From assembly GCF_003688915.1 (NCBI RefSeq), contig NZ_REFU01000001.1, forward strand, positions 2,542,001-2,606,000: a DNA stretch of 64,000 nt, read 5' to 3'. A program made the translations under genes and the position numbers. Positions 41,340 through 63,207 of this stretch are shown here, in pieces. This stretch comes from Rhodococcus sp. SBT000017 (lineage in GTDB: Bacteria > Actinomycetota > Actinomycetes > Mycobacteriales > Mycobacteriaceae). The first letter of the stretch is position 1. Each line of letters starts with the position of its first letter. The notes under the pieces are model-generated. The model ran no database searches. It was given only the letters and a program-made list of their open reading frames with translations, and was not told the origin of the DNA.

Positions 41340-43535
41340 TCACAGTGACGGTGTGCGCTGCGACGGAGGGTTGGAACTCCCCTCGTTCACCGCTCCGGTG
41401 ATGGTGTCGGGTGTGAGGTCGAGTCGACGCAGTAATTGTGCGTTCGCAGCGACGATGATCGTCGACAGCGACATCAGGATCGCGCCGATCGACATCGGCA
41501 GCACGAACCCGACCGGCGCGAGCACTCCTGCCGCGAGCGGAACCGAGATGAGGTTGTATCCCGCTGCCCACCAGAGGTTTTGCTTCATCTTTCGGTACGA
41601 GGCGCGCGAGAGTTCGATCACCGACAACACCGACCTCGGGTCGTCGCTGGCGAGGATCACTCCGGCCGATGCGATTGCGACGTCGGTGCCGGCCCCGATC
41701 GCGATACCGACATCGGCCTGCGCCAGAGCCGGGGCGTCGTTGACTCCGTCGCCGACCATCGCCACCGTACGGCCTTCGCTCTGGAGTTCAGCGACGTTGT
41801 GCGACTTGTCTTCCGGTTTCACCCCGGCGAAGTAGCGGTCCACACCGAGCTCGGTGGCGACGGACTTCGCGACGGCGTCGGCATCACCGGTGATCATCAC
41901 GACCGCGATTCCTCGCGCGTGCAGCGCGTCTACCGCAGTGCGTGACTCGGACCGGATCTCATCGGCGAGCGCGAGGGCACCGATCACGGCCCCGTCGGCG
42001 AGGACGTGCAGGATGATCGCCCCGTCCCCGCGCCACCGGTCGGCGACAGCGAGTTCGGATCCGTGTTCCTGCTCGAGCAGTGCCGGCCCGCCGACCTGGA
42101 TCCGGACGCCGTCGACGTCGGCTGCGACCCCGACGGCGGGGGACGACTGAAAGCCGGCTGCAGCCGGGACCGTCAGGTTCCGCGCGCGTGCGGCCTCGAC
42201 GATGGCACGGGCGAGTGGATGTTCGGAATCTGCTTCTGCGGCAGCGGCCAGCGCGAGAACGTTGTCGGCGGTGCGCCCGCCGGTCACCTCGACTGCGGTG
42301 ACGGTGGGTTCACCCTTGGTGAGGGTCCCGGTCTTGTCGAACAGCACGGTGTCCACCGTGCGCATGGTTTCGAGTGCGAGCCGGTCCTTGACCAGAACAC
42401 CGCCGCGGGCGGCGCGTTCGGTGGCGATGGAGACCACCAGCGGAATCGCCAGTCCGAGTGCGTGCGGGCAGGCGATGACCAGCACGGTGATGGTGCGGAT
42501 GACGGCGTCGTCGGGCATCCCGACCAGAGTCCACACCGCAGCGGTGATGATCGCGGCACCGAGAGCGAACCAGAACAGCCAGCCAGCGGCGGTGTCCGCG
42601 ATGCGCTGAGCGCGCGAGGTCGAGTTCTGGGCGTCGGCGACCAAGCGGCCGATGCCGGCGAGGGCGGTGTCCTCCCCTACTGCAGTGACCTGGACGCGCA
42701 GACCTGAGTCGGTGGCGACAGTGCCGGCGACGACTTGATCGCCGTCGCTGCGGCGGACGGTGCGTGATTCCCCGGTGATCATCGATTCGTCCATGCTCGC
42801 CGATCCGGAGACGATGGTGCCGTCCGCCGGTACGCGGCCGCCGGGGCGGACGACAACGACATCACCGAGCTGCAGCTCGGACGGGGGCACCGGCACCACA
42901 TCGTCGCCCTCGACGCGTTCGGCGACATCCGGGAGCAACGCCGCCAACGAGTCCAGAGCGGAGGTGGTCTGCGCGAGGGATCGCATTTCGATCCAGTGCC
43001 CGAGCAGCATGATCACGATCAGCAGGGCCAGTTCCCACCAGAAGTCGAGCTGATGATCGAGCAGGCCGAGGCTCGCTCCCATCGACGCAATGAATGCGAC
43101 GGTAATCGCCAGGGCGATGAGCAGCATCATTCCCGGTGCACGGGAACGGATTTCGCTGACTGCTCCGGAGAGGAAGGGAGATCCGCCCCAGGCGTACATC
43201 ACCGTTCCGAACACCGGAGAGACCCAGGCAATCCACGCTGCGTCGGGCAATGAGTAGCCGAGGAGCATCGCGAACATGTTCGAGGCAACGATCACCGGAA
43301 CGGCAAGGACCAGCATGACCCAGAACAGGCGACGAAACATACCGACGTGATCACCGTGACCGGTGTGCCCGCCGTGCTCTGCGTTGTGCCCGCCGGTGTC
43401 GTGGTCCGACTGCGGAGTCGCCTTCTCTGCCCCGTCCGTGTGCATTTCGGGTCCTTCTTCATGCCCGCTGTGCTGCAGTCTGTTCGGCGGATCCGTCCGC
43501 GCGGAGTCGACGTCGGAGTGTGTGTGATCGTTCAT
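41340..43535 (-). CDS. copB: CopB-type (P1B-3) copper-translocating ATPase
   Basis: A 731-residue heavy-metal P-type ATPase. The N-terminal 65 residues are His-rich (SDHDTGGHNAEHGGHTGHGDH) with no CxxC heavy-metal domain, and the membrane metal site is CPH (VIACPHALGLAIP), both features of CopB-type transporters, usually assigned to Cu(II) or silver export. Other motifs: MITGES, phosphorylation site DKTGTLTKG, HP dipeptide in SEHPLARAI and GDGVNDAPALA. Its ATG overlaps the TGA of the small gene upstream. The operon is preceded by the long CsoR-type palindrome at 43821. No damage seen. Confidence 0.92.
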   Translation of the reverse strand: MNDHTHSDVDSARTDPPNRLQHSGHEEGPEMHTDGAEKATPQSDHDTGGHNAEHGGHTGHGDHVGMFRRLFWVMLVLAVPVIVASNMFAMLLGYSLPDAAWIAWVSPVFGTVMYAWGGSPFLSGAVSEIRSRAPGMMLLIALAITVAFIASMGASLGLLDHQLDFWWELALLIVIMLLGHWIEMRSLAQTTSALDSLAALLPDVAERVEGDDVVPVPPSELQLGDVVVVRPGGRVPADGTIVSGSASMDESMITGESRTVRRSDGDQVVAGTVATDSGLRVQVTAVGEDTALAGIGRLVADAQNSTSRAQRIADTAAGWLFWFALGAAIITAAVWTLVGMPDDAVIRTITVLVIACPHALGLAIPLVVSIATERAARGGVLVKDRLALETMRTVDTVLFDKTGTLTKGEPTVTAVEVTGGRTADNVLALAAAAEADSEHPLARAIVEAARARNLTVPAAAGFQSSPAVGVAADVDGVRIQVGGPALLEQEHGSELAVADRWRGDGAIILHVLADGAVIGALALADEIRSESRTAVDALHARGIAVVMITGDADAVAKSVATELGVDRYFAGVKPEDKSHNVAELQSEGRTVAMVGDGVNDAPALAQADVGIAIGAGTDVAIASAGVILASDDPRSVLSVIELSRASYRKMKQNLWWAAGYNLISVPLAAGVLAPVGFVLPMSIGAILMSLSTIIVAANAQLLRRLDLTPDTITGAVNEGSSNPPSQRTPSL

Positions 43536-44491: not shown

Positions 44492-44743
44492 TTACCGAGT
44501 GTCGGCACGCTTGCGCAGCGCAGCGGTCGCCAATTCTGCGACCGCTGCGCGATAGAAATCTCGATCTATCTCCCCGGCCGCGAATCTACGATCGAGGATT
44601 TCCTGCGCGTCCTCCCCCGATTGCGGGCGAGCGGACATCAGCCGAACCGCACCCCAGATCAACAGAGCGATCACGACCAGCCAGAACGCGGCCATTCCTG
44701 CCATCATCGTCCATCCGCCACTCATGGTGCCCATATTCATCAT
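44492..44743 (-). CDS. SHOCT-domain small membrane protein
   Basis: An 83-residue protein: Met-rich start (MMNMGTMSGGWTMMAGM), one TM helix AAFWLVVIALLIWGAVRLM and a C-terminal SHOCT motif DAQEILDRRFAAGEIDRDFY. SHOCT proteins are small membrane-associated proteins of unknown function, often found beside copper or stress genes. Two BlaI-type operators lie 64-106 bp upstream, shared with the divergent lgt-like operon, so it should be co-induced. Confidence 0.78.
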   Translation of the reverse strand: MMNMGTMSGGWTMMAGMAAFWLVVIALLIWGAVRLMSARPQSGEDAQEILDRRFAAGEIDRDFYRAAVAELATAALRKRADTR

Positions 44744-44806
44744 TGCTGCTCCTCACTCTCGCACCAGCCACCTGCTGACCTGCGGAGTGTGGTCATCCCG
44801 CAGCTC

Positions 44807-44825
44807 CTACTATAACGCTTAGTAG
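44807..44825. promoter_or_regulatory. BlaI/CopY-type operator 1
   Basis: CTACTATAACGCTTAGTAG, matching CTACTAT-N5-(A/T)TAGTAG at 13 of 14 fixed positions. Lies between the divergent SHOCT and lgt-like genes. Confidence 0.75.
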
Positions 44826-44830
44826 TTCAG

Positions 44831-44849
44831 CTACTATCGAGCATAGTAG
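44831..44849. promoter_or_regulatory. BlaI/CopY-type operator 2
   Basis: CTACTATCGAGCATAGTAG, perfect 7-bp arms with a five-base centre, 52 bp before the lgt-like start. Five bases from operator 1, so both divergent promoters can be covered. Confidence 0.85.
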
Positions 44850-44901
44850 TTGACTGCTGTCGAGACGCCGTCGCCCGGACAGGCGATGATGGAGGCAACC
44901 T

Positions 44902-46335
44902 GTGGGAAAGAAATCCAGCAAGTCGCGATCGAAAGCGCACAAACGACGAACCACGGCGACACGATCCGGGGGCGGCCCACCGGCTCCCCACCCCGGTGCC
45001 ATACGTACTGAGCCCCAGCCAAGGCATCCCCTCTCAGCGGTGGCCCCACATTCTGCGGTCAGCGTCGCCGCCGCCGATTATCTTCGAAGCAGGGGCCACT
45101 CGCCCGGCAGCGGTGCACTCCATCCCACTGTCGCCCGGGCTTTCGCGCCGGACTCCACTACCCCACCGCGAGCGTCGGCCCAGGCCGCAGAACCGACGAT
45201 CGATACTGCAGCGCCGCCGGAGCGCCCACGTGCCCGCACGCCTGAAGCTGTTGCGCCCGCACCGCAGAGTTACGCACCCAAGCGCTCACCAGCCACCAGT
45301 TGTACCGATGAGATTTCCCAGGTCGAGCCGCTGGGGCTTGCGGTGACGTACTGGGGTGTCGGCGGGGCCGATGCCGAGCCCAGCCACGACGTGGCGATTC
45401 GCTTCACTGGATCGCGGGTGGAAGTCGAGGGCCATGCATCGACCGAGAAGGTCGGTTTCGATCGGACTCTGGTCGTGAAATCACGTCCTGCCGCTGGAGG
45501 CCGGTTCGCCGCGACCACCCGTATTCAGGGCATTGCCAGCGGGGAGTGGGAGGTGAGTGCGCGACGCATCGACGGGGGCGCAGACAGTAGCGAACGGCAG
45601 CAGAACTCTGTGCTCACCGCGCGCACTGCGCTACTGACATACGGTCCCGCTGTGCGGGTGTGGAGTTGGCCGGCGTTGGTAGCCGCGGGAGCGGTGGTTG
45701 CATTGATTGTTCAGGGATTCCTGCTCTCACGCATGGATGCCAATGTTGCTGCTGCTGTTGCAATTTCAGCTCTGAGTTGCGTTTTGGGATATATCGGTGC
45801 CAAGGTTTGGTACTTGATCTTGCACCGTCGACCGATATCTACTTTCATCCGCGCAGGAGCGTGCATACAAGGCTTCCTCCTCGTTTCGCTCGGCACCTTG
45901 GTCATCGGCGGAGCACTCGGGGGTATGGACGTCGGCGCAGTCCTGGATGCAACCACCCCGGGATTGTTTCTCGGCATGGCGATCGGTCGTCCGGGATGCT
46001 TCTTGGCGGGCTGCTGTTCGGGGCGTCCGACTCGATCTCGGTGGGGCCTGTTTTCGTCCGATCGCACCCTGGCGACGAGGAGGATTCCGGTTCAGCTCTA
46101 CGAGGCCGCTGCAGCCCTGTTGATCGCGGGAGTTGCGCTCGCCGCGGTACTTCAGGTCGACCTTCCCGTCGGAGGGCTGGTCTTCCTGGGGAGTATTGCC
46201 GCATACACATTGGTCCGGCAAGGCCTGTTTCTGTTTCGAGTGGACGCGCACACTCGTCGAGGCCGACTCACTGTCTCGCTCATCTGCTGCGCGGTCCTCA
46301 TCGGCGTCCTCGCAGCGTCGCAGGTGCTCTCGTGA
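44902..46335 (+). CDS. Lgt-like prolipoprotein diacylglyceryl transferase family protein with long N-terminal extension
   Basis: A 477-residue protein from GTG (GKKSSKSRSKAHKRRTT). The first 140 residues are Lys/Arg- then Pro/Ala-rich and disordered; residues 145-245 form a soluble beta-rich domain (VEPLGLAVTYWGVGG, then SRVEVEGHASTEKVGFDR); residues 250-477 are the membrane part with Lgt hallmarks MAIGRPGCFLAGCCSGRPT, RWGLFSSD and RRIPVQLYEAAAALL. Lgt puts diacylglycerol on the lipobox Cys of prelipoproteins. This is shorter and more divergent than housekeeping Lgt, so it may serve the island's own lipoproteins. BlaI-type operators precede it; the rhodanese gene overlaps its stop. Confidence 0.78.
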   Translation: MGKKSSKSRSKAHKRRTTATRSGGGPPAPHPGAIRTEPQPRHPLSAVAPHSAVSVAAADYLRSRGHSPGSGALHPTVARAFAPDSTTPPRASAQAAEPTIDTAAPPERPRARTPEAVAPAPQSYAPKRSPATSCTDEISQVEPLGLAVTYWGVGGADAEPSHDVAIRFTGSRVEVEGHASTEKVGFDRTLVVKSRPAAGGRFAATTRIQGIASGEWEVSARRIDGGADSSERQQNSVLTARTALLTYGPAVRVWSWPALVAAGAVVALIVQGFLLSRMDANVAAAVAISALSCVLGYIGAKVWYLILHRRPISTFIRAGACIQGFLLVSLGTLVIGGALGGMDVGAVLDATTPGLFLGMAIGRPGCFLAGCCSGRPTRSRWGLFSSDRTLATRRIPVQLYEAAAALLIAGVALAAVLQVDLPVGGLVFLGSIAAYTLVRQGLFLFRVDAHTRRGRLTVSLICCAVLIGVLAASQVLS

Positions 46336-46829
46336 TCACCGAACGTATTTTTATGCGTGTGCCTTTCGGTGATCACCTCGATGCGATGGCACCGCATTCG
46401 GTGTCCCGATCGACGCTCCGTAGTCCGGCATCGATACTGACTGTCCTCGTCCTTGCACTCGCTGGATGTACCGGCGGCGAGGTCTCTGAGCCCACCGCGT
46501 CGATGCCCGTTGCTACACGGGCGGAACTGCTCGATCCCGCTGACTTCGCCGCCGCAATCGCCGATCCCGCCCGAGTCACGATCAACGTCCATACCCCCGA
46601 CGAGGGCCAGCTCCCGGGAACCGACTCGAGCCTTCCCTTCGACCAGATCCGACAACAGGCCGCGACGTTGCCGCCCGACCGGACCACGCCGCTGGCGATC
46701 TACTGCCGTACCGGGACAATGAGCGCCACCGCTGCGAAAGAACTGGCCTCTCTCGGCTACACCGATGTCGTCGAACTACAAGGCGGCATGCTCGCGTGGC
46801 GAAACACCGGACGAACCATCGGAGAATGA
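46332..46829 (+). CDS. Rhodanese-like lipoprotein
   Basis: A protein of up to 165 residues; GTG at 46332 overlaps the lgt-like stop (GTGA), and ATGs at 46353 and 46386 give shorter forms. Signal peptide ILTVLVLALAGCTGG contains a clear lipobox (LALAGC), so the protein would be anchored outside the membrane and is itself a substrate of the Lgt-like protein upstream. One rhodanese domain follows: VTINVHTPDEGQLPGTDSSL and the catalytic loop IYCRTGTMSATAAKEL, with the active Cys present. Likely a sulfur transfer or copper-responsive thiol function outside the cell. Confidence 0.78.
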   Translation: MITERIFMRVPFGDHLDAMAPHSVSRSTLRSPASILTVLVLALAGCTGGEVSEPTASMPVATRAELLDPADFAAAIADPARVTINVHTPDEGQLPGTDSSLPFDQIRQQAATLPPDRTTPLAIYCRTGTMSATAAKELASLGYTDVVELQGGMLAWRNTGRTIGE

Positions 46830-47181
46830 TCACGCACGTTCCGCACCACCGCCCCCGAAGGTCGAGCACCAGAACGTGTCCGATGAAATCGAATGCCGAG
46901 ATCGTCTTGGTCAGGGTTCACCAGGTCGGGACCGGACAATTCGCCGATGGTTCCCGCTGCTGCCGGGAAGTAGTCGATATCGGTTTGCCACCGGGCGCAA
47001 CGGAGTCGAACGGGCCCCCTCCCCGTACCGCCGAATCAGAACCTCTCGCGCATGCTGTCCCGCTCAGTGCTACCAGCGCAGGCGTGCCCTCGCCCCAGGT
47101 TGCCTTCTCCTCGGCGGTGGTTCGGCTCCGTCGGCCGACTCGCTCACGATCGACAACGTATGGACGTGCTGGCAGCGCGCG
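46830..47181. other. Gap of about 350 bp without a supported gene
   Basis: Frames here are Arg/Pro-rich and give no recognisable protein. The promoter of the small membrane protein at 47182 should lie at its right end. Confidence 0.4.
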
Positions 47182-47562
47182 ATGTCAGGCGAAGAACGAG
47201 ACGGCCGGTCGTCGGAAGACGCGGGCGGCCCCTACACCGAGGCGTACAAGCGTGAGCGCCGCCGTCAAGGTCGGGGTTGGGTGGTCCTGATGGCGGGTGT
47301 CGTGATCGGTGCGACCCACGTCGTAATTCATCTCGGGCAGCTTCGGTTTCTTCCGAGCGCCGGATGGCAGGATCTCGCGGTCGGCTATCCGATGGCGATG
47401 GTCCTCGCGCTCGTCGGTCTCATGATGATCGCTTCCCGCACCCGAAAGCCGAGGGGCGAGTATTGCGGACTCGCTCCCGTGATCTGTAGTGCCGCGCGGG
47501 GCATTTCATCCCACCGCGCAGGATGCCAACGTCATGGCCCCCAGCAGGGCCACTACTGGTAA
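47182..47562 (+). CDS. Small two-TM membrane protein, unknown function
   Basis: A 126-residue frame starting MSGEERDGRSSEDAGG. A charged segment (AYKRERRRQGRG) precedes two hydrophobic helices, WVVLMAGVVIGATHVVIHLG and LAVGYPMAMVLALVGLMMIA, then a Cys- and His-containing tail that overlaps the 3' end of the M56 peptidase gene on the other strand. The helices look like real protein, the tail less so. No family recognised. Confidence 0.45.
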   Translation: MSGEERDGRSSEDAGGPYTEAYKRERRRQGRGWVVLMAGVVIGATHVVIHLGQLRFLPSAGWQDLAVGYPMAMVLALVGLMMIASRTRKPRGEYCGLAPVICSAARGISSHRAGCQRHGPQQGHYW

Positions 47563-48468
47563 CGCAGGCAGGGCAACGGCGGTGCACGCTACGAACGCCC
47601 GCGCCCACCGGAGGGGAGCATGCGGGATCACTCGGTCCACGGCGAGACGATCGAGCCGCACAACGGTGGCATCGGAAACCATACCGAGGGCGGGCAGAGG
47701 AACAGGGTGCGGGCGCAGCGAAGTCAGAGCGCGCCGCACGGGGTCTCGTCCGTGCGAGCGGGCTGCGCGGGCGTCCGCGTCGAGTTCGACCAGAGCGCGC
47801 ACGAGCGAAGGTGACGCTCGCATGATCGGTAGCCACGGAAACGCATAGGCCACCGACTCGGCAATGCCTACGAGCAGATGATGCCGGCCATCGATGTGTG
47901 CACGTTCGTGTGCGAGGACCGCCTCGACTTCAGCAGGCGTCAACTGCGTACGCAGCCCCTCGCTGGCCACGACCATCGCCGGTCGTCCCGCGACGCTGTA
48001 CGCGAGAGGACTGTCCAACGGAAGCCACAAGGTCGACGCGGGTTGATTCGAACCGGAAAACCCGACGCCTCCAGCGATGATGCGCAGCAGATCGATGTGC
48101 CGCTCGTACACTCGCCGTCGCTCACACACTGCGCGCCTCAGGTGGACGATCCAGCGGACTGCGCCGCAGCCCAACATCGCAATCCCGACAACCCCGACGA
48201 TGGCCTCGACGCGGGCAGGTATGTCGCCCTGAAGGGCGAGCCAGCATTGGTGTGCGATGTCGACCAGGGTCGTCACGCCCCCATGACTGGGGATCGCACT
48301 GAGCACGACCGGTACCGCAATGCTGACCAAGGTGCCCACAACGAGCGCCGACCACGTCAAGAGCGTGACGTGCGCATCGATACCTCTGTCGATCATCGAC
48401 CTCATCAGCAATGGCGCGGCAGCCGCAACCAACAGCCCACCGAGGGCCCACAGGAGTACGGCAGTCAC
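47506..48468 (-). CDS. M56-family (BlaR1-like) membrane metallopeptidase
   Basis: A 320-residue membrane protein with about four TM segments, the zinc-peptidase motif VLAHERAHIDGRHH (HExxH variant HERAH) near residue 190 and a downstream ELDADARAA that could give the third ligand. No penicillin-binding sensor domain follows, unlike BlaR1. The start overlaps the stop of the BlaI-type repressor (ATGA), the usual repressor/protease pair in which the protease inactivates the repressor after a signal. Given the copper genes it controls, the signal may be copper or envelope stress rather than a beta-lactam. Confidence 0.85.
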   Translation of the reverse strand: MTAVLLWALGGLLVAAAAPLLMRSMIDRGIDAHVTLLTWSALVVGTLVSIAVPVVLSAIPSHGGVTTLVDIAHQCWLALQGDIPARVEAIVGVVGIAMLGCGAVRWIVHLRRAVCERRRVYERHIDLLRIIAGGVGFSGSNQPASTLWLPLDSPLAYSVAGRPAMVVASEGLRTQLTPAEVEAVLAHERAHIDGRHHLLVGIAESVAYAFPWLPIMRASPSLVRALVELDADARAARSHGRDPVRRALTSLRPHPVPLPALGMVSDATVVRLDRLAVDRVIPHAPLRWARAFVACTAVALPALPVVALLGAMTLASCAVG

Positions 48469-48821
48469 CTCTGACGCTCTTTCAGACCGCGGGTGAGCAC
48501 CTTCGATTCGTCATCGGAAGCGCCGCGGGCGAAGTGCAGCAGCACGCTCGTCGGGTCGCCGGTCGATTCGAGAAGTATTCGCAAGGCGTCGGAGGCGGCT
48601 TCTTCCCTGCTTCGGGTGGCTTCGTACCAATATGCCCGTCCGTTGCGTTGTCGGTGTACCCAGCCTTTACGGTGCAAATTGTCGAGCACCGTCTGAATCG
48701 TGGTGTACGCCGGTTCTCGACCGTCCTCGAGTTGATCGATGACATCACGAACCCGGACTGCGGCGCTGGTATTCCACACCACGTCCATCACCAGAGCTTC
48801 GAGCTCTCCCAAACCCTGCAT
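48465..48821 (-). CDS. BlaI/MecI/CopY-family repressor
   Basis: A 118-residue winged-helix repressor: LGELEALVMDVVWNTSAAVRV, then the recognition-helix region PAYTTIQTVLDNLHRKGWVHR and the wing RNGRAYWYEATRSREEAA, ending in a dimerisation tail. The CxC metal hook of Enterococcus CopY is absent, so direct copper sensing by that site is not expected. It is the likely binder of the CTACTAT-N5-ATAGTAG sites in this island; BlaI-type operators elsewhere have the related TACTA...TAGTA form. Coupled to the M56 peptidase gene. A weak operator lies in its own upstream region. Confidence 0.88.
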   Translation of the reverse strand: MQGLGELEALVMDVVWNTSAAVRVRDVIDQLEDGREPAYTTIQTVLDNLHRKGWVHRQRNGRAYWYEATRSREEAASDALRILLESTGDPTSVLLHFARGASDDESKVLTRGLKERQR

Positions 48822-48868
48822 GAGTGCCTCCTAGGCGCGTGTTCACTCTATCCCGTCGAACGAGCCAG

Positions 48869-48887
48869 CTACGTGATCCTTCGGTAG
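48869..48887. promoter_or_regulatory. Weak BlaI-type operator upstream of the repressor gene
   Basis: CTACGTGATCCTTCGGTAG keeps the outer CTAC and GTAG at exactly the same spacing as the strong sites but loses the inner bases. It lies 48 bp before the repressor start, where an autoregulatory site is expected. Confidence 0.45.
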
Positions 48888-48942
48888 CGAGCACCCTGGT
48901 CCGAGAGGTTTGCATGCCTCGAATACGAATGCGGCCGTAGGC

Positions 48943-50442
48943 TCACGCCAGGTAGGACACCGATGTCATCATTCCCGCTTCCCCGTGATAGAGGTTGTGG
49001 CAGTGCAGAAGCCACTGGCCGGGATTGTCGGTGTCGAAGTCGACTTCGACAGTTTGGTTCGGCAAGACCAGCGAGGTGTCCTTCCGGGGGCCTGATCCGG
49101 CACCGTTGACAACCTCGAAGGTGTGTCCGTGCAGATGCATGGGATGAAACATCGTGGTGGCGTTGACGAAGCGAAGTCGTACTCTTTCGCCTTCGCGAAC
49201 GTCGAGGGGGGTGTGCTGCTCGTACGTCTCACCGTTGAGCGTCCAGGTGTACCCGCCCATCTCCATCCCGAGAGCGATGTCGTACGTGCGATCCGGCTCG
49301 CGTGCGGACAAGCGGACCGTATCGAGCGACATCAGTTGATCAGCCATCACCGGGGCTGCAGAGAGTTCGGCAGGCCGGACTGAGGACTGCGGCGCGGCGC
49401 CTGGCCCGGTACGCAACACAGCGAACCCGCTCCCGTCCTTACCTTCCGCGGCGGCGACAATCGGAAACGCCCCGTCCTGCAAGGTGATGATTGCGTCGTA
49501 ACGCTCTCCCATCCCTATCAACAAGCATTGCGCCTGCTCGGGCTGAACCGGAAATCCGTCGCTGTGAGTAACAGTGAGAGGATGCCCCCCCACTGCGAAA
49601 CGGAAGGCCGTGTCGGCAGCTGCGTTGATGATGCGCAGGCGCAGCCGCTGGCCCGGCCGTCCGCCGAGCACGATGGGGTCGGCGGCGATCTTGCCGTTGA
49701 TCAGGTAGTACGGGTAGCTCACGTCGCCGGTGTCGCCACCGAGAGGCGACTGGGCGGTGGGCGCGCTCATCGACATGCCGCCCATCGACATGCCCTCGCT
49801 GCGCAGCCGTTCGAGTTCTCGATCGGGGTCGCCGGCTACCCCGTCGAGCCAGTCGTCCAGGACCAGGACGGCTTCGAGGTCGTAGTCCGAGCCGTCGGCG
49901 GGGTCCTCGACGATCAGCGGTGCATACAGTCCTCTGTCGAGTTGGGTACCGACGTGAGGGTGAAAGAAGTACGTGCCCGCGTCGGGCACGGTGAAGTCGT
50001 AGCCGAACGAGTCACCGGAAGCCACAGCCGGCTGAGTCAGGCCCGGCACTCCGTCCATGTCGTTGCGCAAGGCGATTCCGTGCCAATGGATCGTCGTCTC
50101 CTGCTCGAGGCGGTTGTCGAGCTGTGCGCGCAACACATCACCTCGGCTCAGGCGAATCTCGGCACCGGGGAGTCTGTCGCCGAAAGTCCAGGTCTGTACC
50201 TGCACTCCGCCGAGGTCGATCGTGCTCGACTGAGCTCTCAAGGAAATATCGACTTGTCTGCCGACGGCCGAGCGCCGCGCGTCCTCGGCCTGTCCCACCA
50301 CATCGGAGTCCGGTCCGACAACTGTCGCTGCGGACGAGCCATTGCCGCATGCCGCCAACACGACGGCACTCGTTCCGGCCGCGCTCAGCGCGAGAAAGTT
50401 GCGGCGCGTGAGCGAGAACGCACCTGCCCGCTGCCTGGTCAT
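48943..50442 (-). CDS. Tat-exported multicopper oxidase
   Basis: A 499-residue cupredoxin-fold oxidase. The start at 50442 is chosen for its GGGAG box six bases upstream; it opens with the twin-Arg signal SLTRRNFLALSAAG followed by VVLAACGNG, which also has a lipobox. Copper sites are complete: ETTIHWHGIALRN, TYFFHPHVGTQ, HPMHLHGHTFEV and LLHCHNLYHGEAGMM. A Met-rich segment (SEGMSMGGMSMSAP) at about residue 245 matches the cuprous-oxidase Met loops of CueO-type enzymes. Predicted to oxidise Cu(I) to the less toxic Cu(II) outside the membrane. Transcribed after the TlpA-like gene. Confidence 0.93.
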   Translation of the reverse strand: MTRQRAGAFSLTRRNFLALSAAGTSAVVLAACGNGSSAATVVGPDSDVVGQAEDARRSAVGRQVDISLRAQSSTIDLGGVQVQTWTFGDRLPGAEIRLSRGDVLRAQLDNRLEQETTIHWHGIALRNDMDGVPGLTQPAVASGDSFGYDFTVPDAGTYFFHPHVGTQLDRGLYAPLIVEDPADGSDYDLEAVLVLDDWLDGVAGDPDRELERLRSEGMSMGGMSMSAPTAQSPLGGDTGDVSYPYYLINGKIAADPIVLGGRPGQRLRLRIINAAADTAFRFAVGGHPLTVTHSDGFPVQPEQAQCLLIGMGERYDAIITLQDGAFPIVAAAEGKDGSGFAVLRTGPGAAPQSSVRPAELSAAPVMADQLMSLDTVRLSAREPDRTYDIALGMEMGGYTWTLNGETYEQHTPLDVREGERVRLRFVNATTMFHPMHLHGHTFEVVNGAGSGPRKDTSLVLPNQTVEVDFDTDNPGQWLLHCHNLYHGEAGMMTSVSYLA

Positions 50443-50502
50443 ACACATCTCCCAATTCTGTAGAAGTCCGTCCGCCGGCGGGCGTTCGATCCTCGCCGCG
50501 TT

Positions 50503-50534
50503 GCTGGTGCTGGTGCTCGTGCTCGTGCTCGTGC
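50503..50534. repeat. Hexamer tandem repeat after the TlpA gene
   Basis: Five successive six-base units, two GCTGGT then three GCTCGT, followed by GCTGAG, in the gap between the TlpA-like stop and the oxidase start. A likely slippage-prone tract. Confidence 0.6.
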
Positions 50535-50539
50535 TGAGA

Positions 50540-51175
50540 TCAGCGCACAAGCGCTGTTACCGCCTCCCGCACCTGACTCGGGTCGTAGAACACCGGCGTC
50601 GAGGTGATGCGCTCGATCGTTCCATCGCTCTGGACCAAGAAACTCAGGGGCAGGACAGGGGGCGCGTCAAGTGTCTGCAACGCCGCGTCGGCCTGATCGA
50701 ACGAGGGATAGTGCACTCCCAGCTCGGTGAGCAGGCTCAATGCCGCATCGGCATCGTCTTGGACGTTGAGACCGACGACCCGAACCGCATCCGGTTCTGC
50801 GGCGTACTGGGCCAGAACCGGAATCTCCTGTCTACACGGACCGCACCACGACGCCCAGACATTGAGCAATGTGGGTTGCCCAGCCAGGGAGGTCCCCAGA
50901 TCGGATAAGTCCGACGTTCCCAAGCATCGTGCGGACGTACCGACGAGCTCGCCAGTTACGGGGGACGGAACCGGCGACGAGGTCGGGCACGGCTCGAGGG
51001 CAGCACGGGTAGCGATCACTGCCGACGGGAGATCCTCGTCCTCGACGTGAGGTGCCGATCCTGCGGACCCCACCGACTGGGTCGAGGGATCTCGAGACCA
51101 CAATGCCAGCGCTCCAACAACTGTCACGATGACGATGATCGCAAGTAGGGACCAGCGTGTCGTCACCCGCTGCAC
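50540..51175 (-). CDS. TlpA-like membrane-anchored thiol-disulfide oxidoreductase
   Basis: A 211-residue protein with an N-terminal TM anchor (WSLLAIIVIVTVVGALALW), a linker, and a thioredoxin fold carrying the active site NVWASWCGPCRQEIPVL near residue 112 and the cis-Pro region PPVLPLSFLVQSDG. Two extra Cys (LEPCPTSS and ARCLGTSD) precede the fold. TlpA-like proteins reduce disulfides or copper sites outside the membrane. First gene of the operon with the multicopper oxidase; a perfect BlaI-type operator lies 64 bp upstream. Confidence 0.88.
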   Translation of the reverse strand: MQRVTTRWSLLAIIVIVTVVGALALWSRDPSTQSVGSAGSAPHVEDEDLPSAVIATRAALEPCPTSSPVPSPVTGELVGTSARCLGTSDLSDLGTSLAGQPTLLNVWASWCGPCRQEIPVLAQYAAEPDAVRVVGLNVQDDADAALSLLTELGVHYPSFDQADAALQTLDAPPVLPLSFLVQSDGTIERITSTPVFYDPSQVREAVTALVR

Positions 51176-51239
51176 CCTGCACCTCTGTCTCGTTCACCTC
51201 GACGATGTCTTCCGGTCTGTCAGCGTCATACTACACGAT

Positions 51240-51258
51240 CTACTATCTTCGATAGTAG
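51240..51258. promoter_or_regulatory. BlaI/CopY-type operator 3
   Basis: CTACTATCTTCGATAGTAG, perfect 7-bp arms. It precedes the tlpA-like operon and, more distantly, the divergent M23 peptidase gene. A second half-site-rich stretch (TACTACACGATC) adjoins it. Confidence 0.85.
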
Positions 51259-51623
51259 CAACGTGGATCCTGCACGCCGTCAACGCTTTCGCGGCCCCTT
51301 CACCCTCGGGCCTCACAGTGCCAGCACACAGCTCTCCGGCCGTTCGCCGAAGACGACCGTCCCCATCGAGGCGCACGATGAAGGCCGTCCAGCGACGCCG
51401 AGTCCTTCTGGCGCAGAAGATATTACGTACATGAACTTCGGCTCCCGAGAAACAACCCGACGATCGAAATGGGTCGCAGGGTGCGAATGTTACCGATGTA
51501 ATTCACTGTGACTGATGGTGCTTGTGCGGAAAGGGTGTAATAGTGATGCGGCGTGTCGCCTTGACTCGAAGGCGACCTGAATTACTGCCAGGTATGCAGT
51601 TGCCGTCCAGGAGGACCACCGAC
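51259..51623 (+). other. Gap of about 365 bp upstream of the M23 peptidase gene
   Basis: Contains the leader of the peptidase gene. In-frame ATG and GTG codons at 51522-51594 lie upstream of the chosen start but encode no plausible N-terminus. No RNA element recognised. Confidence 0.4.
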
Positions 51624-52802
51624 ATGAGACCTCTGCCCTCGTCCTCGTACATGGCGCACCGAACTCGGTGGGGTACTCGCATCCTCGTCGGTACCGCGTT
51701 CGTGGGAGGCATCCTCGCGCTGGCACCCACGGCGTCTGCAGCCCCGGACGCCGATCCGGCTGCGCCGCCGCCTGCCTTCCCCGCGCAGGCCCAATCGGAC
51801 CCGCACGTCCAACAGGAGGTCCTCGATCTCGTCGTCGGCGCACTACGCGAGATTCGCGCCAACGGTGCTCTCGACGACCTGGCCGGCCCACAGAGCCGCA
51901 TCGTCTCCTGCCTCGTGGGCACGATCGGAGCCACCGATACAGCTGACGGACCAACGGGAGCCCTTTCGCGACTGATCCCCTGTCTCGCGCCGATCGACGA
52001 CATCGACCCCACAGTTCTCCCCCGACTGGTGTCGTCGATGGACGTCGCCACACTTGCATCCACACTCGCGGCCGCCGAGACTCCCCACGATCCGGCCACC
52101 CCGCACACCTCGTCGCGCGGACATGCGGCGGTCCCACCCGGCAGGTCGAACGCCGAGCCCTCGACCGAACAACCGACCGCCCAAGGCACCCAGGACACTC
52201 AGGACCCCGAGTCGGCCGCCGAGTCGGCCGACTCGGCGACGCCCGAACTGCCCGCGCTCGAACCCGACGCCACTGTGCCTGAAACGTCGGCACCCGGCAC
52301 GTCATCTGAAACAACGACACCCGAAACCACGACACCCGAGGCGGGCGATCATTCGTCGGCCGCCCCGCAATCCCCTACCGGCACAACAGGGTCGAGCAAC
52401 GGAAAGTATCGTGCGCCGACAACAGGAACGTTGACCTCGACCTTCGGCGACGGCCGCGCCCATCAAGGAATCGACATCGCCAACTCCACCGGTACACCGA
52501 TCGTCGCCGTTGCGGACGGCGAGGTGATCAGCGCGGGACCGGCCCAGGGCTTCGGACTCTGGGTGCGTATACGCCACGATGACGGCACCGTAACGACCTA
52601 CGGGCACAACAACGACAACCTCGTGACCGTAGGTCAACGCGTCACTGCTGGTGAAGAAATTGCGACGGTAGGAAACCGGGGTATCTCCACCGGTCCACAT
52701 CTGCACTTCGAGGTCGACACACCCGCCGGCAACAAGGTCGACCCCAGACTTTGGCTCGCGGAACGCGGAGCCACCATCACCGGTTCGGATCGTGACTCGT
52801 AG
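51624..52802 (+). CDS. Secreted M23-family (LytM) peptidase
   Basis: A 392-residue exported protein; start chosen for AGGAGG nine bases upstream and for the signal peptide it gives (ILVGTAFVGGILALAPTASAA). After an alanine-rich helical domain comes a long Ser/Thr/Pro/Glu linker (residues 165-285), then the LytM domain: LTSTFGDGRAHQGIDIANS and TVGNRGISTGPHLHFEV. The zinc ligands are present as H-x8-D-type HQGID and HLH. It cuts peptidoglycan cross-links or activates amidases. Convergent with a second M23 gene of very similar catalytic domain. Confidence 0.88.
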   Translation: MRPLPSSSYMAHRTRWGTRILVGTAFVGGILALAPTASAAPDADPAAPPPAFPAQAQSDPHVQQEVLDLVVGALREIRANGALDDLAGPQSRIVSCLVGTIGATDTADGPTGALSRLIPCLAPIDDIDPTVLPRLVSSMDVATLASTLAAAETPHDPATPHTSSRGHAAVPPGRSNAEPSTEQPTAQGTQDTQDPESAAESADSATPELPALEPDATVPETSAPGTSSETTTPETTTPEAGDHSSAAPQSPTGTTGSSNGKYRAPTTGTLTSTFGDGRAHQGIDIANSTGTPIVAVADGEVISAGPAQGFGLWVRIRHDDGTVTTYGHNNDNLVTVGQRVTAGEEIATVGNRGISTGPHLHFEVDTPAGNKVDPRLWLAERGATITGSDRDS

Positions 52803-53003
52803 TCGAGCCTCGACCGCACGGCCCGCCGATGGGAACGAATTCCGCACTGTTGCACTGACTTCGGATGCGTCTCTGCGGTCTCGTTTTCACCATCAGACCT
52901 GAACCCTCGGTGCCTCGACATGTTCAGCGGGCGCGCAGTACGATCGCCCGCATTCCGGTAAGTTCGCCGTACCTACTGCGAGCCCGAGAGGTGAAACGGG
53001 GGC

Positions 53004-53789
53004 CTACGACCGAACAGCCGCGTCGGACAGCGCGACACCCCGAGAGGCGAGCCACTCCTGAGGATCGACCTTGCTCCCCGCCGCGTCGACGACCTCGAAA
53101 TGCAGGTGAGGCCCGGTCGATTGGCCACGATTGCCGACGGTGGCGATCTGCTCACCGGCTTGTACTCGTTGCCCCACGGTCACCAAGGTTTGATCGATGT
53201 GCCCGTAGACCGTTGTCGTTCCATCGTCATGTTGAAGACGTACCCAGAGGCCGAATCCGTCTGCAGGACCGGAGTCGAGCACGGTAGCGTCGGCTGCCGC
53301 GTAGACGGGAGTTCCGATAGCGTTGGCGATGTCGAGCCCGGTGTGCGTAGTCCCCCATCGTGGACCGAAATCCGAGGTCAGGGTCCCGGCGACCGGACGA
53401 ACGACGAGTGGTCGCAGCGCCGCTGCATCACGCGCAGCGCTCTCCTCTGCCCTTCGTTGCCCCTTCGCCAACTGCTCGATCGCATCGTTGATATTGGAGA
53501 TCTCCGGTATGGCGAGGATCTGAGGCAAGTATTCGGCCACCGGGTCCTGCATCGGTGTCGCTTCGTGCACGGGGACTGCCTGCGCCTGGGCGGGACTCGC
53601 ATATTGGGCACCCGCCGTGACCAGAGCGCCCGCTGCCACCGCAATACCGACAGCGACACTGCCGCGGCGCTCGGTGGCGCGCGCCCGAGCGCGATGCCGC
53701 CCTCTCGGCGTCACCGCCACTCCCGGCACGTCACAGTCCATCAACTGTCGACGTCGGTCGGTCATGCGGGTCATACGGTGTTGTGCCAC
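53004..53789 (-). CDS. Second secreted M23-family (LytM) peptidase
   Basis: A 261-residue protein with an N-terminal basic region, a hydrophobic signal or anchor (VAVGIAVAAGALVTAGAQYA), a short helical linker (IEQLAKGQRRAEESAARDAA) and a LytM domain: LTSDFGPRWGTTHTGLDIAN and TVGNRGQSTGPHLHFEV, with all zinc ligands. The catalytic domain is close to that of the converging gene, pointing to duplication with different linkers. A BlaI-type operator lies 116 bp upstream, putting cell-wall remodelling under the same control as copper oxidation. Alternative starts lie 5 and 8 codons in. Confidence 0.88.
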   Translation of the reverse strand: MAQHRMTRMTDRRRQLMDCDVPGVAVTPRGRHRARARATERRGSVAVGIAVAAGALVTAGAQYASPAQAQAVPVHEATPMQDPVAEYLPQILAIPEISNINDAIEQLAKGQRRAEESAARDAAALRPLVVRPVAGTLTSDFGPRWGTTHTGLDIANAIGTPVYAAADATVLDSGPADGFGLWVRLQHDDGTTTVYGHIDQTLVTVGQRVQAGEQIATVGNRGQSTGPHLHFEVVDAAGSKVDPQEWLASRGVALSDAAVRS

Positions 53790-53904
53790 AGCAGAGTCCT
53801 CGGTAATCGAATGGAGCGAGGCGAAGTCATCGACGTGCGCACCTCACTGATGTATCGAACGGATCACGACGCGATAACGAAAAGATACACGACGAGTGGG
53901 GTAA

Positions 53905-53923
53905 TTACTATCATGGTTAGTAG
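53905..53923. promoter_or_regulatory. BlaI/CopY-type operator 4
   Basis: TTACTATCATGGTTAGTAG matches the CTACTAT-N5-ATAGTAG consensus at 12 of 14 fixed positions. It is upstream of the 53004-53789 peptidase gene, just after the lnt-like stop. Confidence 0.65.
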
Positions 53924-53952
53924 TTCGATGTCCCCCGCAGTGGTTTCGTGCC

Positions 53953-55551
53953 TCACAGCGCGGTAGCACCGGACGTCGACGGTCGGAGACCATCGGCCGG
54001 CGAACGCTGCCTTCTCCATGCGAGAGCACACCCCACGACAGCAAGAACGACCGCGGCGTACTCCGGAAGCGGTCCCAGCTTTGTCGCCCACGTCGATCTC
54101 GTTTCCAGGGCAACATCAGCGACCAACGTCTGCGCAGCGAACAAGCCCGAACGATCTGCGACCTTCCCCTGTGGGTCGATGACGGCACTGACCCCACTGG
54201 TCGCCGCAACGAGAACAGTCCTGTTGTGCTCGACCGCCCGCAGCCGCGACATCGCCAACTGCTGGTAGGTCATATCGGTGCGCCCGAACGTCGCATTGTT
54301 GGTGGGGACCGTGATCAGCTGCGCCCCCGCACGCACGGACTCAGTGACCAGGTCATCGAACGCGACCTCGTAACACGTGGCGACGGCCGTCGGAATTCCG
54401 GCGATATCGACGACACCGTCGCCCGACCCGGGAACGAAGTTACCGGCCTGCGAGGCGTAGGAGGACAACCTCGTCATCACAGATCGCATCGGGAGATACT
54501 CTCCGAAAGGAACAAGTTTGCGTTTGTCGTGTCGCTCCCCCGGTCCGAGTACCGGATCCCACACGATCGAGGTATTCATCGAGGTGCCGTCGTCGTTACC
54601 GAGCACAGCTCCGACCAGAATCGGCACCCCGACCGACCGCGCTGCAGCGTCGATCCCGGCAGTGGCGTCGGCGTTGCGCAGTGGGTCGATATCGGATGCA
54701 TTCTCCGGCCAGATCACCAGGTCGGGAGCGGGCACCCTGCCGGCGGTGATGTCGTCCCCGAGCTGCATTGTTCGCTCGATGTGATTGTCGAGAACTGCTC
54801 GACGTTGCGAGTTGAAGTCCAGACCCGACCGCGGAACGTTGCCTTGAACAACGGCGACCGTCGCACGCGCTGCGCCTGCATCGTCAGCGGGAGTGAGCGC
54901 GAAAGCCAGAGCCGGCACGATCACCACAGTGGCCACCGACCCGACTGCGAATCGCGACGTCGGCGAGCGTACCTGGCGGACCACACTGGCCAGTGCCGCG
55001 CCGATCACTGCGACTGCAAAAGATACACCGGGCGCACCGGCGAACGCGGCAAGCGAGAGCAGAGGGCCGTCTGCTTGGGCGAAAGCTAGTTTCCCCCACG
55101 GAAATCCCCCGAACGGAATCCGTGCGCGCAGACCTTCGGTGGCGGTCCAGATCGCGGCGATCCACAGCGCTTCGAAGCGCAACCCGGACACTGCGGCCGC
55201 TGCAGCGCAGAACAGTGCCACTGCTATCGCTTGGATCGCCGCGAGCGCCAGCCACGGCGGGGCACCGACGTAGACACCCACCCAGGGCAGCAGAGGCAGA
55301 AAGAACGCAAGCCCCGACAGATACCCATAGAAGAATGCCGCCCGGATGGAACGGCCGCGGATGACGAGAACAAGAACCCCGACACCCAACGGCGCGAGGA
55401 ACCACAGCGACCGAGGTGGAAAGCCCGCGTACAACAGCACACCAGCAGATACCGCACACGATGACCTGCCTGCTATCGCGGTGAACACACGGCGACGTCG
55501 GGTTCGTCGGTGACGGTTCACTGTTGTTGCGCTGGACTCGATATCGAGCAT
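53953..55551 (-). CDS. lnt: Apolipoprotein N-acyltransferase (Lnt-like)
   Basis: A 532-residue protein: six or more TM helices in the first 230 residues (LLYAGFPPRSLWFLAPLGVG), then a nitrilase-like domain with the catalytic triad visible as Glu in DLVIWPENASD, Lys in HDKRKLVPFGEYLP and Cys in VATCYEVAFDD. Lnt adds the third acyl chain to lipoproteins. Preceded 52 bp upstream by the longest BlaI-type palindrome in the island, so expression should follow the repressor. Together with the Lgt-like gene it forms a copper-island lipoprotein maturation set; a housekeeping copy is expected elsewhere in the genome but is not in this window. Confidence 0.88.
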   Translation of the reverse strand: MLDIESSATTVNRHRRTRRRRVFTAIAGRSSCAVSAGVLLYAGFPPRSLWFLAPLGVGVLVLVIRGRSIRAAFFYGYLSGLAFFLPLLPWVGVYVGAPPWLALAAIQAIAVALFCAAAAAVSGLRFEALWIAAIWTATEGLRARIPFGGFPWGKLAFAQADGPLLSLAAFAGAPGVSFAVAVIGAALASVVRQVRSPTSRFAVGSVATVVIVPALAFALTPADDAGAARATVAVVQGNVPRSGLDFNSQRRAVLDNHIERTMQLGDDITAGRVPAPDLVIWPENASDIDPLRNADATAGIDAAARSVGVPILVGAVLGNDDGTSMNTSIVWDPVLGPGERHDKRKLVPFGEYLPMRSVMTRLSSYASQAGNFVPGSGDGVVDIAGIPTAVATCYEVAFDDLVTESVRAGAQLITVPTNNATFGRTDMTYQQLAMSRLRAVEHNRTVLVAATSGVSAVIDPQGKVADRSGLFAAQTLVADVALETRSTWATKLGPLPEYAAVVLAVVGCALAWRRQRSPADGLRPSTSGATAL

Positions 55552-55603
55552 GCCTGCATGGCTCTTTTCTCATGTACGGCATAGCGCCACCTGACCACCC
55601 TCG

Positions 55604-55630
55604 GTTACTACTATGCACGATAGTAGTAAC
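55604..55630. promoter_or_regulatory. BlaI/CopY-type operator 5 (extended)
   Basis: The 19-bp core CTACTATGCACGATAGTAG (55608-55626) is flanked by GTTA and TAAC, giving perfect 11-bp arms around GCACG. Best site in the window; upstream of the lnt-like gene. Confidence 0.88.
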
Positions 55631-59775: not shown

Positions 59776-59979
59776 ATGAACACCACCGTCACCGTCACCG
59801 GAATGACCTGCGGGCACTGCGTCTCCTCGGTCCGAGAGGAGATCAGCGGCATCCCCGGTGTGACCGCCGTGAATGTCGACCTCGCGAGCGGCCGAGTCGA
59901 TATCGACTCGGACACCCCGATCGAGCAGACGGCCATCGCCCACGCAGTCGACGAGGCCGGCTACCAGCTCGCCTCCTGA
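59776..59979 (+). CDS. copZ: CopZ-type copper chaperone
   Basis: A 67-residue single heavy-metal-associated domain: [20 protein letters not shown] with the copper-binding GMTCxxC motif, then [15 protein letters not shown] and [11 protein letters not shown]. Complete beta-alpha-beta-beta-alpha-beta fold length. It carries Cu(I) in the cytoplasm to the copper ATPase encoded 326 bp downstream. AAGAAAGAAGG ribosome-binding site. First gene after the CsoR-type box. Confidence 0.93.
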
Positions 59980-60011
59980 TCGACACCAGACCCGGACAGG
60001 AGATTCGCACG

Positions 60012-60275
60012 ATGAACGCATCATCGAAGTTCGTCGGATTCACCATCGCCCTAGCCGCGGTCTTCGGGCTCGCCTTCGGAGCCGGGGACGCCTTCGGCCC
60101 CGAAGGTGCCGCACCACCCGACACACACGACACCTCGACTCACGACGCCGCCGCGGTGTCCACTGCGGGCGGGCCCGTCGCCAATCAGAGACCTGGAGGA
60201 TTGATGGTCACCGACAGCAGATACGCCGCGGTGCCCGCCGCCTCGGAGCCGATGCCCGCCGGGCACGGACACTGA
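60012..60275 (+). CDS. Small anchored His-rich protein between copZ and copA
   Basis: An 87-residue protein with an N-terminal signal or TM segment ([19 protein letters not shown]), a proline- and His-containing exported part ([16 protein letters not shown]) and the end MPAGHGH. His, Met and Asp residues could bind copper outside the membrane. Such small proteins are common between copZ and copA in actinobacteria, but no function is established. ACAGGAG ribosome-binding site. Confidence 0.7.
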
Positions 60276-60304
60276 CACACCACCACACCCCGAGAGGAGC
60301 GACG

Positions 60305-62569: not shown

Positions 62570-62677
62570 CCGCGCGGGTAGAACAAGCACCCAAAAGGCT
62601 GGGGTGGGCGTGGCATGCAGGCGCGCCACCCCACCCCACCGCTACAACCCCGATGCAGCCTACGAAAGGAGAGGGCC

Positions 62678-62845
62678 ATGTCCTTCGTGACAACGACCTT
62701 GGTGCAGATCACCCGGCACCCGGCGACCCGAGCGGTGGCCCGCTGCGCGGTGATGTGCGCTGCGGCGGCGGCCCAGCGACGACTCGACGGACCGACCCTC
62801 TCGCGCCATACCCCGGGCGGGCATAATCGAGGATGCTCGGCATGA
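62678..62845 (+). CDS. Possible small protein between copA and csoR
   Basis: A 55-codon frame starting MSFVTTTLVQITRHPATRA, with AAAGGAGAGG six bases upstream and a hydrophobic, Cys-containing middle (ARCAVMCAAAAAQRR). The CsoR-type box lies inside its 3' part, which argues against it being an important gene; the good ribosome-binding site argues for. Unknown function. Confidence 0.4.
   Translation: MSFVTTTLVQITRHPATRAVARCAVMCAAAAAQRRLDGPTLSRHTPGGHNRGCSA
62808..62824. promoter_or_regulatory. CsoR-type operator upstream of csoR
   Basis: ATACCCCGGGCGGGCAT, a C-run/G-run pseudo-palindrome 44 bp before the csoR start; probable autoregulatory site. Confidence 0.6.
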
Positions 62846-62868
62846 CACTCGGATTCCAGGAGGACACC

Positions 62869-63207
62869 ATGGCCACTCCCGCGGCCGCGCAGGCACCCGC
62901 CGAGACCGACGGCCATGATCACGCCGCGCACGGCTACATCACCGAAAAGGACGCCTACCTCAAACGCCTCAAGCGCATCGAAGGCCAGGCCCGAGGACTG
63001 CAGCGCATGGTCGAGGAAGACAAGTACTGCATCGACATCCTCACCCAGGTCTCGGCGATGACCAAAGCCTTGCAGGCGGTGGCCATGGGCCTGCTCGAAG
63101 CTCACATCAGCCACTGCGTGGTCGACGCCGCCATCGCCGGCGGTCCCCAAGCCGACGCGAAGATCAAAGAGGCCACCGACGCGATCTCACGGCTCGTCCG
63201 CTCCTGA
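62869..63207 (+). CDS. csoR: Copper-sensing repressor CsoR
   Basis: A 112-residue CsoR-family protein; the ATG at 62869 is chosen because AGGAGG lies five bases upstream, while ATGs at 62833 and 62842 lack one. The Cu(I) ligands are all present: Cys54 in EEDKYCIDIL, His79 and Cys83 in LLEAHISHC, the C-H-C triad of copper-sensing members. The His-rich N-terminal tail (DGHDHAAHG) is also common in actinobacterial CsoR. It would release the TACCCC/GGGGTA boxes when Cu(I) binds. Contrast the broken CstR-like gene at 38322, which lacks the His. Confidence 0.93.
   Translation: MATPAAAQAPAETDGHDHAAHGYITEKDAYLKRLKRIEGQARGLQRMVEEDKYCIDILTQVSAMTKALQAVAMGLLEAHISHCVVDAAIAGGPQADAKIKEATDAISRLVRS

Follow-up and report, generated by a model that had tools for sequence, protein, structure and literature searches.

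A palindromic motif shared by copper, thiol, lipoprotein and cell-wall genes around a BlaI-type repressor and an M56-type metalloprotease in Rhodococcus

Results

The window analysed here, 64,000 nucleotides of Rhodococcus sp. SBT000017 within a 5.65-Mb genome of the Rhodococcus group (labelled G000; contig C1), carries a gene for a BlaI-type repressor (118 amino acids; 48465..48821, minus strand) coupled to one for an M56-type membrane metalloprotease (320 amino acids; 47506..48468, minus strand), and several genes around this pair are preceded by one palindromic motif. Upstream of the pair, on the same strand, are a TlpA-like thioredoxin (50540..51175; PF08534) and a multicopper oxidase (MCO; 48943..50442; PF07731/PF07732/PF00394), the latter with a twin-arginine and lipobox-like start read from its translation. 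Scanning the window for CTACTAT-N5-ATAGTAG (14 fixed bases, 19 bp; up to three mismatches allowed) returned exactly five matches, compared with a mean of 0.11 in 100 shuffles, none of which reached five. Two of them, 44807..44825 (one mismatch) and 44831..44849 (exact), stand in tandem 24 bp apart between an open reading frame (ORF) of 83 amino acids (44492..44743, minus strand) and an Lgt-like gene (44902..46335, plus strand), at 64 and 88 bp from the start codon of the former and 77 and 53 bp from that of the latter. The third (51240..51258; exact) lies 65 bp upstream of the TlpA-MCO-BlaI-M56 series; from it diverges M23 peptidase a (51624..52802, plus strand; PF01551), at 291 or 366 bp, its start being uncertain (GTG 51549 or ATG 51624). 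The fourth (53905..53923; two mismatches) is 116 bp upstream of M23 peptidase b (53004..53789, minus strand; PF01551), and the fifth (55608..55626; exact), whose arms lengthen to TTACTACTAT...ATAGTAGTAA, is 57 bp upstream of an extra copy of the apolipoprotein N-acyltransferase gene lnt (53953..55551, minus strand).

An earlier note on this DNA had named these five sites and placed them some 50–120 bp upstream of genes; the sites were borne out, and the start-codon distances of 53–116 bp agree. A sixth, weak site that it saw before blaI itself was rejected, as the best match in 48822–48960 has six mismatches out of 14 and no ACTA core. TlpA and MCO precede blaI on its strand, so that it would come under the 51240 site. 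A sigma-70-like promoter scan of 44400–56000 gave a single match, at 52915, against 2.0 in shuffles, and because this is fewer than in shuffles we claim no promoter overlap with the sites. Rfam and tRNA scans of the window gave no match at them.

Across the whole genome, 16 places matched with up to two mismatches: eight in the segment that includes the window's sites (2586807–2619270; five inside the window, three beyond it), six in a second segment with its own BlaI-M56 pair (2692293–2702442) and two elsewhere. Thus, 14/16 matches fall in the two BlaI segments, the four exact ones all in the window's segment, and the hundreds of unrelated sites that, by the earlier note, would have refuted its reading did not appear. 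At three mismatches the search is uninformative, because the reversed-pattern control gives more matches than the motif (113 vs 31). A two-mismatch site at G000:C1:970304-970322 (L007) has a UbiA-family gene, probably ctaB, on one side and a transketolase-like ORF on the other.

We then compared the motif with the distribution of segment-type BlaI, defined as at least 198 bits, a line drawn after the scores had been seen. Among 61 genomes, including that of the window, sites with up to one mismatch were present in 14 and segment-type BlaI in 13; both occurred in 12, BlaI only in one (G021), sites only in two (G008, G057) and neither in 46 (Fisher test, 6.5e-10; kinship is ignored here, all our Fisher values are without phylogenetic correction, and close island copies are non-independent). 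The reversed pattern gave a single place in each of four genomes in the same scan. An exact site was found in 14/397 genomes of the order, compared with 1/397 for the reversed pattern. Selection by an exact site in genomes other than the window's gave 14 loci in 13 genomes. BlaI was present in 13 of these loci, 12 of the 13 with a called M56; the fourteenth locus (L056, omitted from the 13-locus column of our content table) had no BlaI within the 19.9 kb read. A third BlaI type (132 bits) is encoded 12–15 kb from the second segment's BlaI (G033:C39:21507, G025:C8:75489, G011:C12:90142, G019:C99:97976) and also occurs in G008.

A complementary set was chosen by BlaI, from the best 80 of at least 548 matches, giving 79 loci and, minus the close relatives L070–L073, 75; it overlaps the site-chosen set in at least two loci (L063/L084, L065/L080). 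Sites were present in 52 of these loci, 103 in total (6 exact, 44 with one and 53 with two mismatches), and 101 of the 103 lay outside called genes, with a median distance of 77 bp to gene starts up to 300 bp away. One shuffle of each of the 75 loci yielded no sites, and neither did 40 control loci (796 kb; hand-chosen round coordinates in 15 genomes, with no one-to-one matching to the 75). In 26/75 loci a site stood within 300 bp of the blaI start. These comparisons link the motif to the repressor, in several families of Actinobacteria and far above chance. The 24-bp tandem arrangement recurs in G018 (L037) and on a plasmid of R. erythropolis CERE8 (L051), and with 23 bp on a Tsukamurella tyrosinosolvens plasmid (L053).

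With up to two mismatches, the CERE8 plasmid has five sites, M. gilvum pMSPYR101 (L052) five, the Tsukamurella plasmid six and R. erythropolis pBD2 (L055) five, and these four jointly encode Lgt, Lnt, LspA, TlpA, CcdA, ResB, MCO, M23, RipA-C, L,D-transpeptidase, CtaD and CopC/CopD. On M. chubuense pMYCCH.01 there are two BlaI-M56 pairs with a similar gene set, and of its two two-mismatch sites one precedes lnt by 38 bp. Three sites were found on R. oxybenzonivorans pRB29. In P. autotrophica (L054), a BlaI-M56 pair is accompanied by a multicopper oxidase, with no site at up to two mismatches. Another family of the order contributes a locus (G046; L044) with five sites, where a BlaI at 46% identity is encoded together with TlpA, CcdA, ResB, MCO, an amidase and a canonical Lgt. 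Among the matches listed, relatives 97–100% identical to the window BlaI lie on contigs of Rhodococcus sp. KRD162, KRD197, ARC_M5 and EPR-157. In a plasmid DNA identity search, the sole matches were M23 fragments, in 18 records and covering 3% of the query.

Island copies with identical sites in G019, G025 and G033, and a more diverged copy in G018, could mean that a single spreading island carried the sites along, their conservation having no functional meaning. We consider this very improbable: diverged loci in other families have the same motif and content, and the arms are kept while spacers and flanks change. Between paired sites of G000 and G018, differences amounted to 0/84 in arms, 4/30 in spacers and 29/180 in flanks, and between those of G000 and G010 to 3/70, 11/25 and 78/150. 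What counts against a regulatory reading here is the choice of pairs for arms and spacers (6/8 and 5/6 sites), which were picked since both members match and are therefore biased to conserved arms. Taken together, the motif, its placement and its co-occurrence with the repressor, all read directly from sequence, make TACTAT-N5-ATAGTA very probably the BlaI operator, through which repression would be exerted.

The two segment BlaI proteins match Penicillinase_R (PF03965) with 89.6 (window) and 91.1 bits (gathering cut-off 22.6). In 82/82 aligned BlaI sequences the P1' position is Phe, and 65 have HF, as does the window protein, aligned to the NF of MecI; BlaI is cut at N101-F102 according to PMC9834060. 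The earlier note's 'CopY-type' label did not stand, and metal sensing of that kind by the repressor was rejected: the window BlaI has no Cys (any Cys occurs in 11/82 relatives) and scores 44.4 against the CopY_TcrY (TIGR02698) cut-off of 121.95.

Its partner has a membrane zinc-metalloprotease fold with an HEXXH sequence (HERAH). Fold matches are headed by BlaR1, those to BepA and ZMPSTE24 being taken to reflect the common protease core. The protein ends at residue 320 with its last helix, PF01435 is the sole domain found, and neither the domain search nor the protein end revealed a beta-lactam sensor or penicillin-binding domain. M56 is likely to cleave BlaI. Two cysteines, Cys75 and Cys317, fall in predicted outside regions (a loop and the tail); both are present in 120/136 aligned M56 sequences, and they occur as both or neither in 129/136 (the homologue search scored the 7995 candidates sharing most words, and 4/109 homologues shorter than 270 amino acids were dropped). 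The pair is missing from both chromosomal M56 paralogues. We tentatively propose, at somewhat less than even confidence, that this pair is the sensor.

Gene content around BlaI was labelled by blastp with a set taken mostly from the segments and plasmids of this analysis, the same set being applied to the controls. Copper genes were found in 41/75 loci vs 1/40 controls, DUF305 in 28/75 vs 0/40, peptidoglycan genes in 27/75 vs 2/40 and thiol or cytochrome c genes in 16/75 vs 1/40, with no enrichment of lipoprotein genes (7/75 vs 2/40). Since loci with and without sites are alike in copper genes (31/52 and 10/23), the copper neighbours belong to the BlaI group overall and not to the motif alone. 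Three loci of Amycolatopsis tucumanensis, copper-resistant according to a review (PMC8503819), are among those read, L081 without sites and L085 and L142 with them. Small ACPxGMGxMMW proteins, possible Met/Cys copper peptides, start 25–42 bp from sites at L057 8618, L058 9705, L064 14703 and L112 16258. In Pseudonocardia (L105, L125, L133, L135) other cargo, namely epimerase- or cupin-like and methyltransferase-like genes (labels by reading), diverges from a site.

The class that best separates loci with and without sites is that of peptidoglycan genes (23/52 vs 4/23, p = 0.036, uncorrected for seven classes). This, the recurrence of RipC, M23, L,D-transpeptidase and NlpC genes and the classical response of BlaI/M56 systems to beta-lactams favour another signal, cell-wall damage, with M56 sensing peptidoglycan stress directly or via a partner and the copper genes as island passengers. 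The absence of a penicillin-binding domain from M56 and the surplus of copper genes over controls make this explanation improbable, as do three loci (L066, L068, L069) that pair BlaI-M56 with DsbA-like and CcdA-like genes. Thiol redox as the core of the programme is possible; L066, L067 and L068 have no copper label.

The chromosome outside the segments offers a comparison and, for the motif as the operator of BlaI, an independent check in favour. The motif TACTAC-N5-GTAGTA, which differs from that of the segments by one base per arm, occurs exactly at G000:C1:777147-777163 and 2369752-2369771 (L149, L150), 36 bp before the chromosomal blaI's own start and 79 bp before cydA. It was found in all 37 genus members searched, one to three times each among the matches listed; as the reversed pattern also occurs zero to three times, these counts prove little, and the position before blaI or cydA is the evidence. 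In 32 loci read (one from each genome and three from the window's genome, L150 and L151 being one place read twice), the motif stood before cydA in 20, before chromosomal blaI in ten (36 bp each time) and before neither in two, so that the connection between BlaI and cytochrome bd recurs across a genus. Once, in G050 of another family, it also precedes cydA. These positions suggest that the chromosomal BlaI controls the cytochrome bd oxidase.

The position of the chromosomal motif before cydA, whose cytochrome bd is copper-free, speaks for a respiratory signal, in which haem-copper oxidase failure or copper starvation is reported by BlaI/M56, as it may be by the chromosomal paralogue, and the segments bring copper delivery and assembly for an additional oxidase (CtaD, CtaG, CopC/CopD, Res/Ccs). 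Sites at CtaD, CopD-CtaG and CopC (33 bp) fit this view, and the literature adds that the atp operon is under BlaI control in M. tuberculosis (PMC5874750, PMC12565901) and that a copper-short sigC mutant raises cyd and atp genes (PMC7924339). We nevertheless regard it as unlikely, if somewhat less so than wall damage: sites also stand at MCO, M23, RipC, Lnt and CsoR genes, a set easier to reconcile with excess or damage than with starvation, and with no cysteine pair in the chromosomal M56 the inputs may differ.

The remaining genes of the two segments widen the set. In the window, the Lgt-like protein has an N-terminal extension and the LGT fold, and the label given by the earlier note stands in so far as Pfam LGT matches with 79.3 bits. 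It falls below the curated TIGR00544 model (24.9 vs 118.9), and GRPGCFLAGCCSGRPT occupies the place of the Lgt signature: CFLAGCC aligns to NWFNNE of the canonical L044 protein, which passes TIGR00544 with 137.3. A canonical Lgt was therefore rejected. Lgt-fold relatives with CC at the signature position occur in L051, L053, L059 and L064, where the N-terminal extension family is recurrent. Next to it is a rhodanese-domain protein (46332..46829, plus strand; PF00581) with a lipobox-like start read from translation. The 83-amino-acid ORF matched nothing in Pfam or NCBIfam, so its former 'SHOCT' label was dropped. Two copper loci in the window have no sites of their own: a heavy-metal P-type ATPase that we label CopB-like (41340..43535, minus strand; PF00122), and a CopZ-like ORF (label by reading), CopA-like ATPase and CsoR-type regulator (59776..63207, plus strand; PF00403/PF00122, PF02583).

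To the right of the window (L011), the genes behind sites encode a 167-amino-acid membrane protein, an NlpC/P60 protein, ResB-CcsA, followed at some distance by TlpA-CcdA, and a 269-amino-acid protein that shares 59% identity with a protein of L051 annotated as F510_1955; a penicillin-binding protein gene within the segment has no site near its start. The 167-amino-acid protein (L011 1040-1543), without Pfam match, has a CPIC motif and relatives in the G018, G046 and L059 loci. The NlpC/P60 gene behind the 2606576 site (L011 1825-2888) is split over two frames where G018 has an intact gene, by decay or sequence error. Second-segment sites (L013, L014) stand at ResB; Lnt/LspA; a cation-efflux gene and CopD-CtaG; M23-BlaI-M56 (L013 13998); CtaD; and CopC (33 bp), then CtaG. 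The Lnt copies of the two segments exceed the TIGR00546 cut-off (293.6 in the window and 306.8 vs 132.9), as does the second-segment LspA that of TIGR00077 (84.2 vs 73.95). Because Lgt, LspA and Lnt are each encoded once more outside the segments (an LNT_N gene lies at G000:C1:847371), the segment genes are extra copies. ORFs reading, by translation, like an IS21-type transposase pair (L011 15558-17968) and an excisionase/integrase (L014 7566-9742) flank the two segments.

The envelope programme of the earlier note is upheld in that copper handling, lipoprotein maturation and wall cutting share one motif, with the reservation that the Lgt is atypical. Its composition is wider than was claimed, extending to cytochrome c maturation, cytochrome oxidase and thiol-redox genes; in full it comprises two Lnt, LspA, the atypical Lgt-like protein, Res/Ccs/Ccd, thiol-redox proteins, CtaD/CtaG/CopC/CopD and peptidoglycan hydrolases.

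Discussion

The explanation that we hold to be the best, and moderately probable as a whole, is that copper or thiol stress outside the cell acts through M56 and cleavage of BlaI to release an envelope regulon that is mobile and self-contained, each segment having its own BlaI-M56 pair. Each segment's BlaI would repress promoters with TACTAT-N5-ATAGTA. The M56 protein, resembling BlaR1 but for the beta-lactam sensor, would react to stress outside the membrane caused by copper or thiol oxidation, probably via Cys75, in the loop equivalent to BlaR1 EL1, and Cys317, at the end of the last helix, where the sensor of BlaR1 would begin. Once activated, it would cut BlaI at H96-F97, and the genes released would supply spare copies of machinery that acts outside the membrane and is open to damage by copper (Lnt, LspA, thioredoxin/CcdA, Res/Ccs, CtaD/CtaG/CopC/CopD, M23 and NlpC hydrolases), while the multicopper oxidase would detoxify Cu(I).

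For copper or thiol stress as the input we see about even chances. Lnt acylates the lipoprotein amino group, and the targets of copper include cytochrome c assembly and L,D-transpeptidases. Blocking that same amino group has been proposed to lower copper binding, and in Listeria the copper-induced lit2 shares a mobile element with neighbouring lgt2 and copper genes, both according to PMC8275575 and PMC8689077. These observations would be consistent with a spare set governed by a copper or thiol sensor. A bolder proposal, which we put forward as doubtful though well short of unlikely, is a new receptor class, in which an EL1/C-tail cysteine pair replaces the beta-lactam sensor, reads copper or the disulfide state and controls a mobile spare envelope set, the chromosomal paralogue being insulated by one base per arm.

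If true, the model would explain how BlaI/M56 functions without a beta-lactam sensor, and it names two residues. Copper resistance in Actinobacteria would then include, besides copper pumping, the replacement of damaged envelope-assembly machines, and a testable link would join copper, lipoprotein N-acylation and cell-wall remodelling. Regulation by BlaI-M56 has been described before. In the open-licence literature, judged by titles and opening lines, we found no account of this receptor form, of the two related motifs or of this regulon.

The staphylococcal BlaI/BlaR1 and MecI/MecR1 systems share with the segments the repressor family, palindromic operators, a coupled membrane metalloprotease (BlaR1 being the best fold match) and Phe at the aligned P1' position. 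They differ in that here a Cys pair is present and a beta-lactam sensor domain is not, the operator is TACTAT-N5-ATAGTA, and the regulon consists of copper, thiol, lipoprotein, cytochrome and wall genes. CopY/TcrY repressors, which have a Cys-rich metal-binding C terminus and which we take to belong to the same Pfam family (PF03965), differ from the segment BlaI, which has no Cys metal motif, falls under the CopY_TcrY cut-off and is protease-coupled. The Corynebacterium copper transport and insertion protein CtiP presumably resembles the CopD-CtaG fusion behind a segment site, but here CopD-CtaG lies in a mobile-type segment behind a BlaI-type site.

M. tuberculosis BlaI (Rv1846c) is likewise an actinobacterial BlaI with energy genes in its regulon; of the two BlaI types described here, it appears nearer to the chromosomal paralogue, with its TACTAC-N5-GTAGTA motif and cydA, than to the BlaI of the segments. 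A parallel in content is the copper-induced lit2/lgt2 element of Listeria and Enterococcus, which, according to the same sources as above, combines mobile copper resistance with extra lipoprotein-modifying enzymes. It belongs to another phylum and uses Lit where the segments described here, in which no search aimed at Lit was made, have Lnt, together with a BlaI-M56 pair and cytochrome c and peptidoglycan genes.

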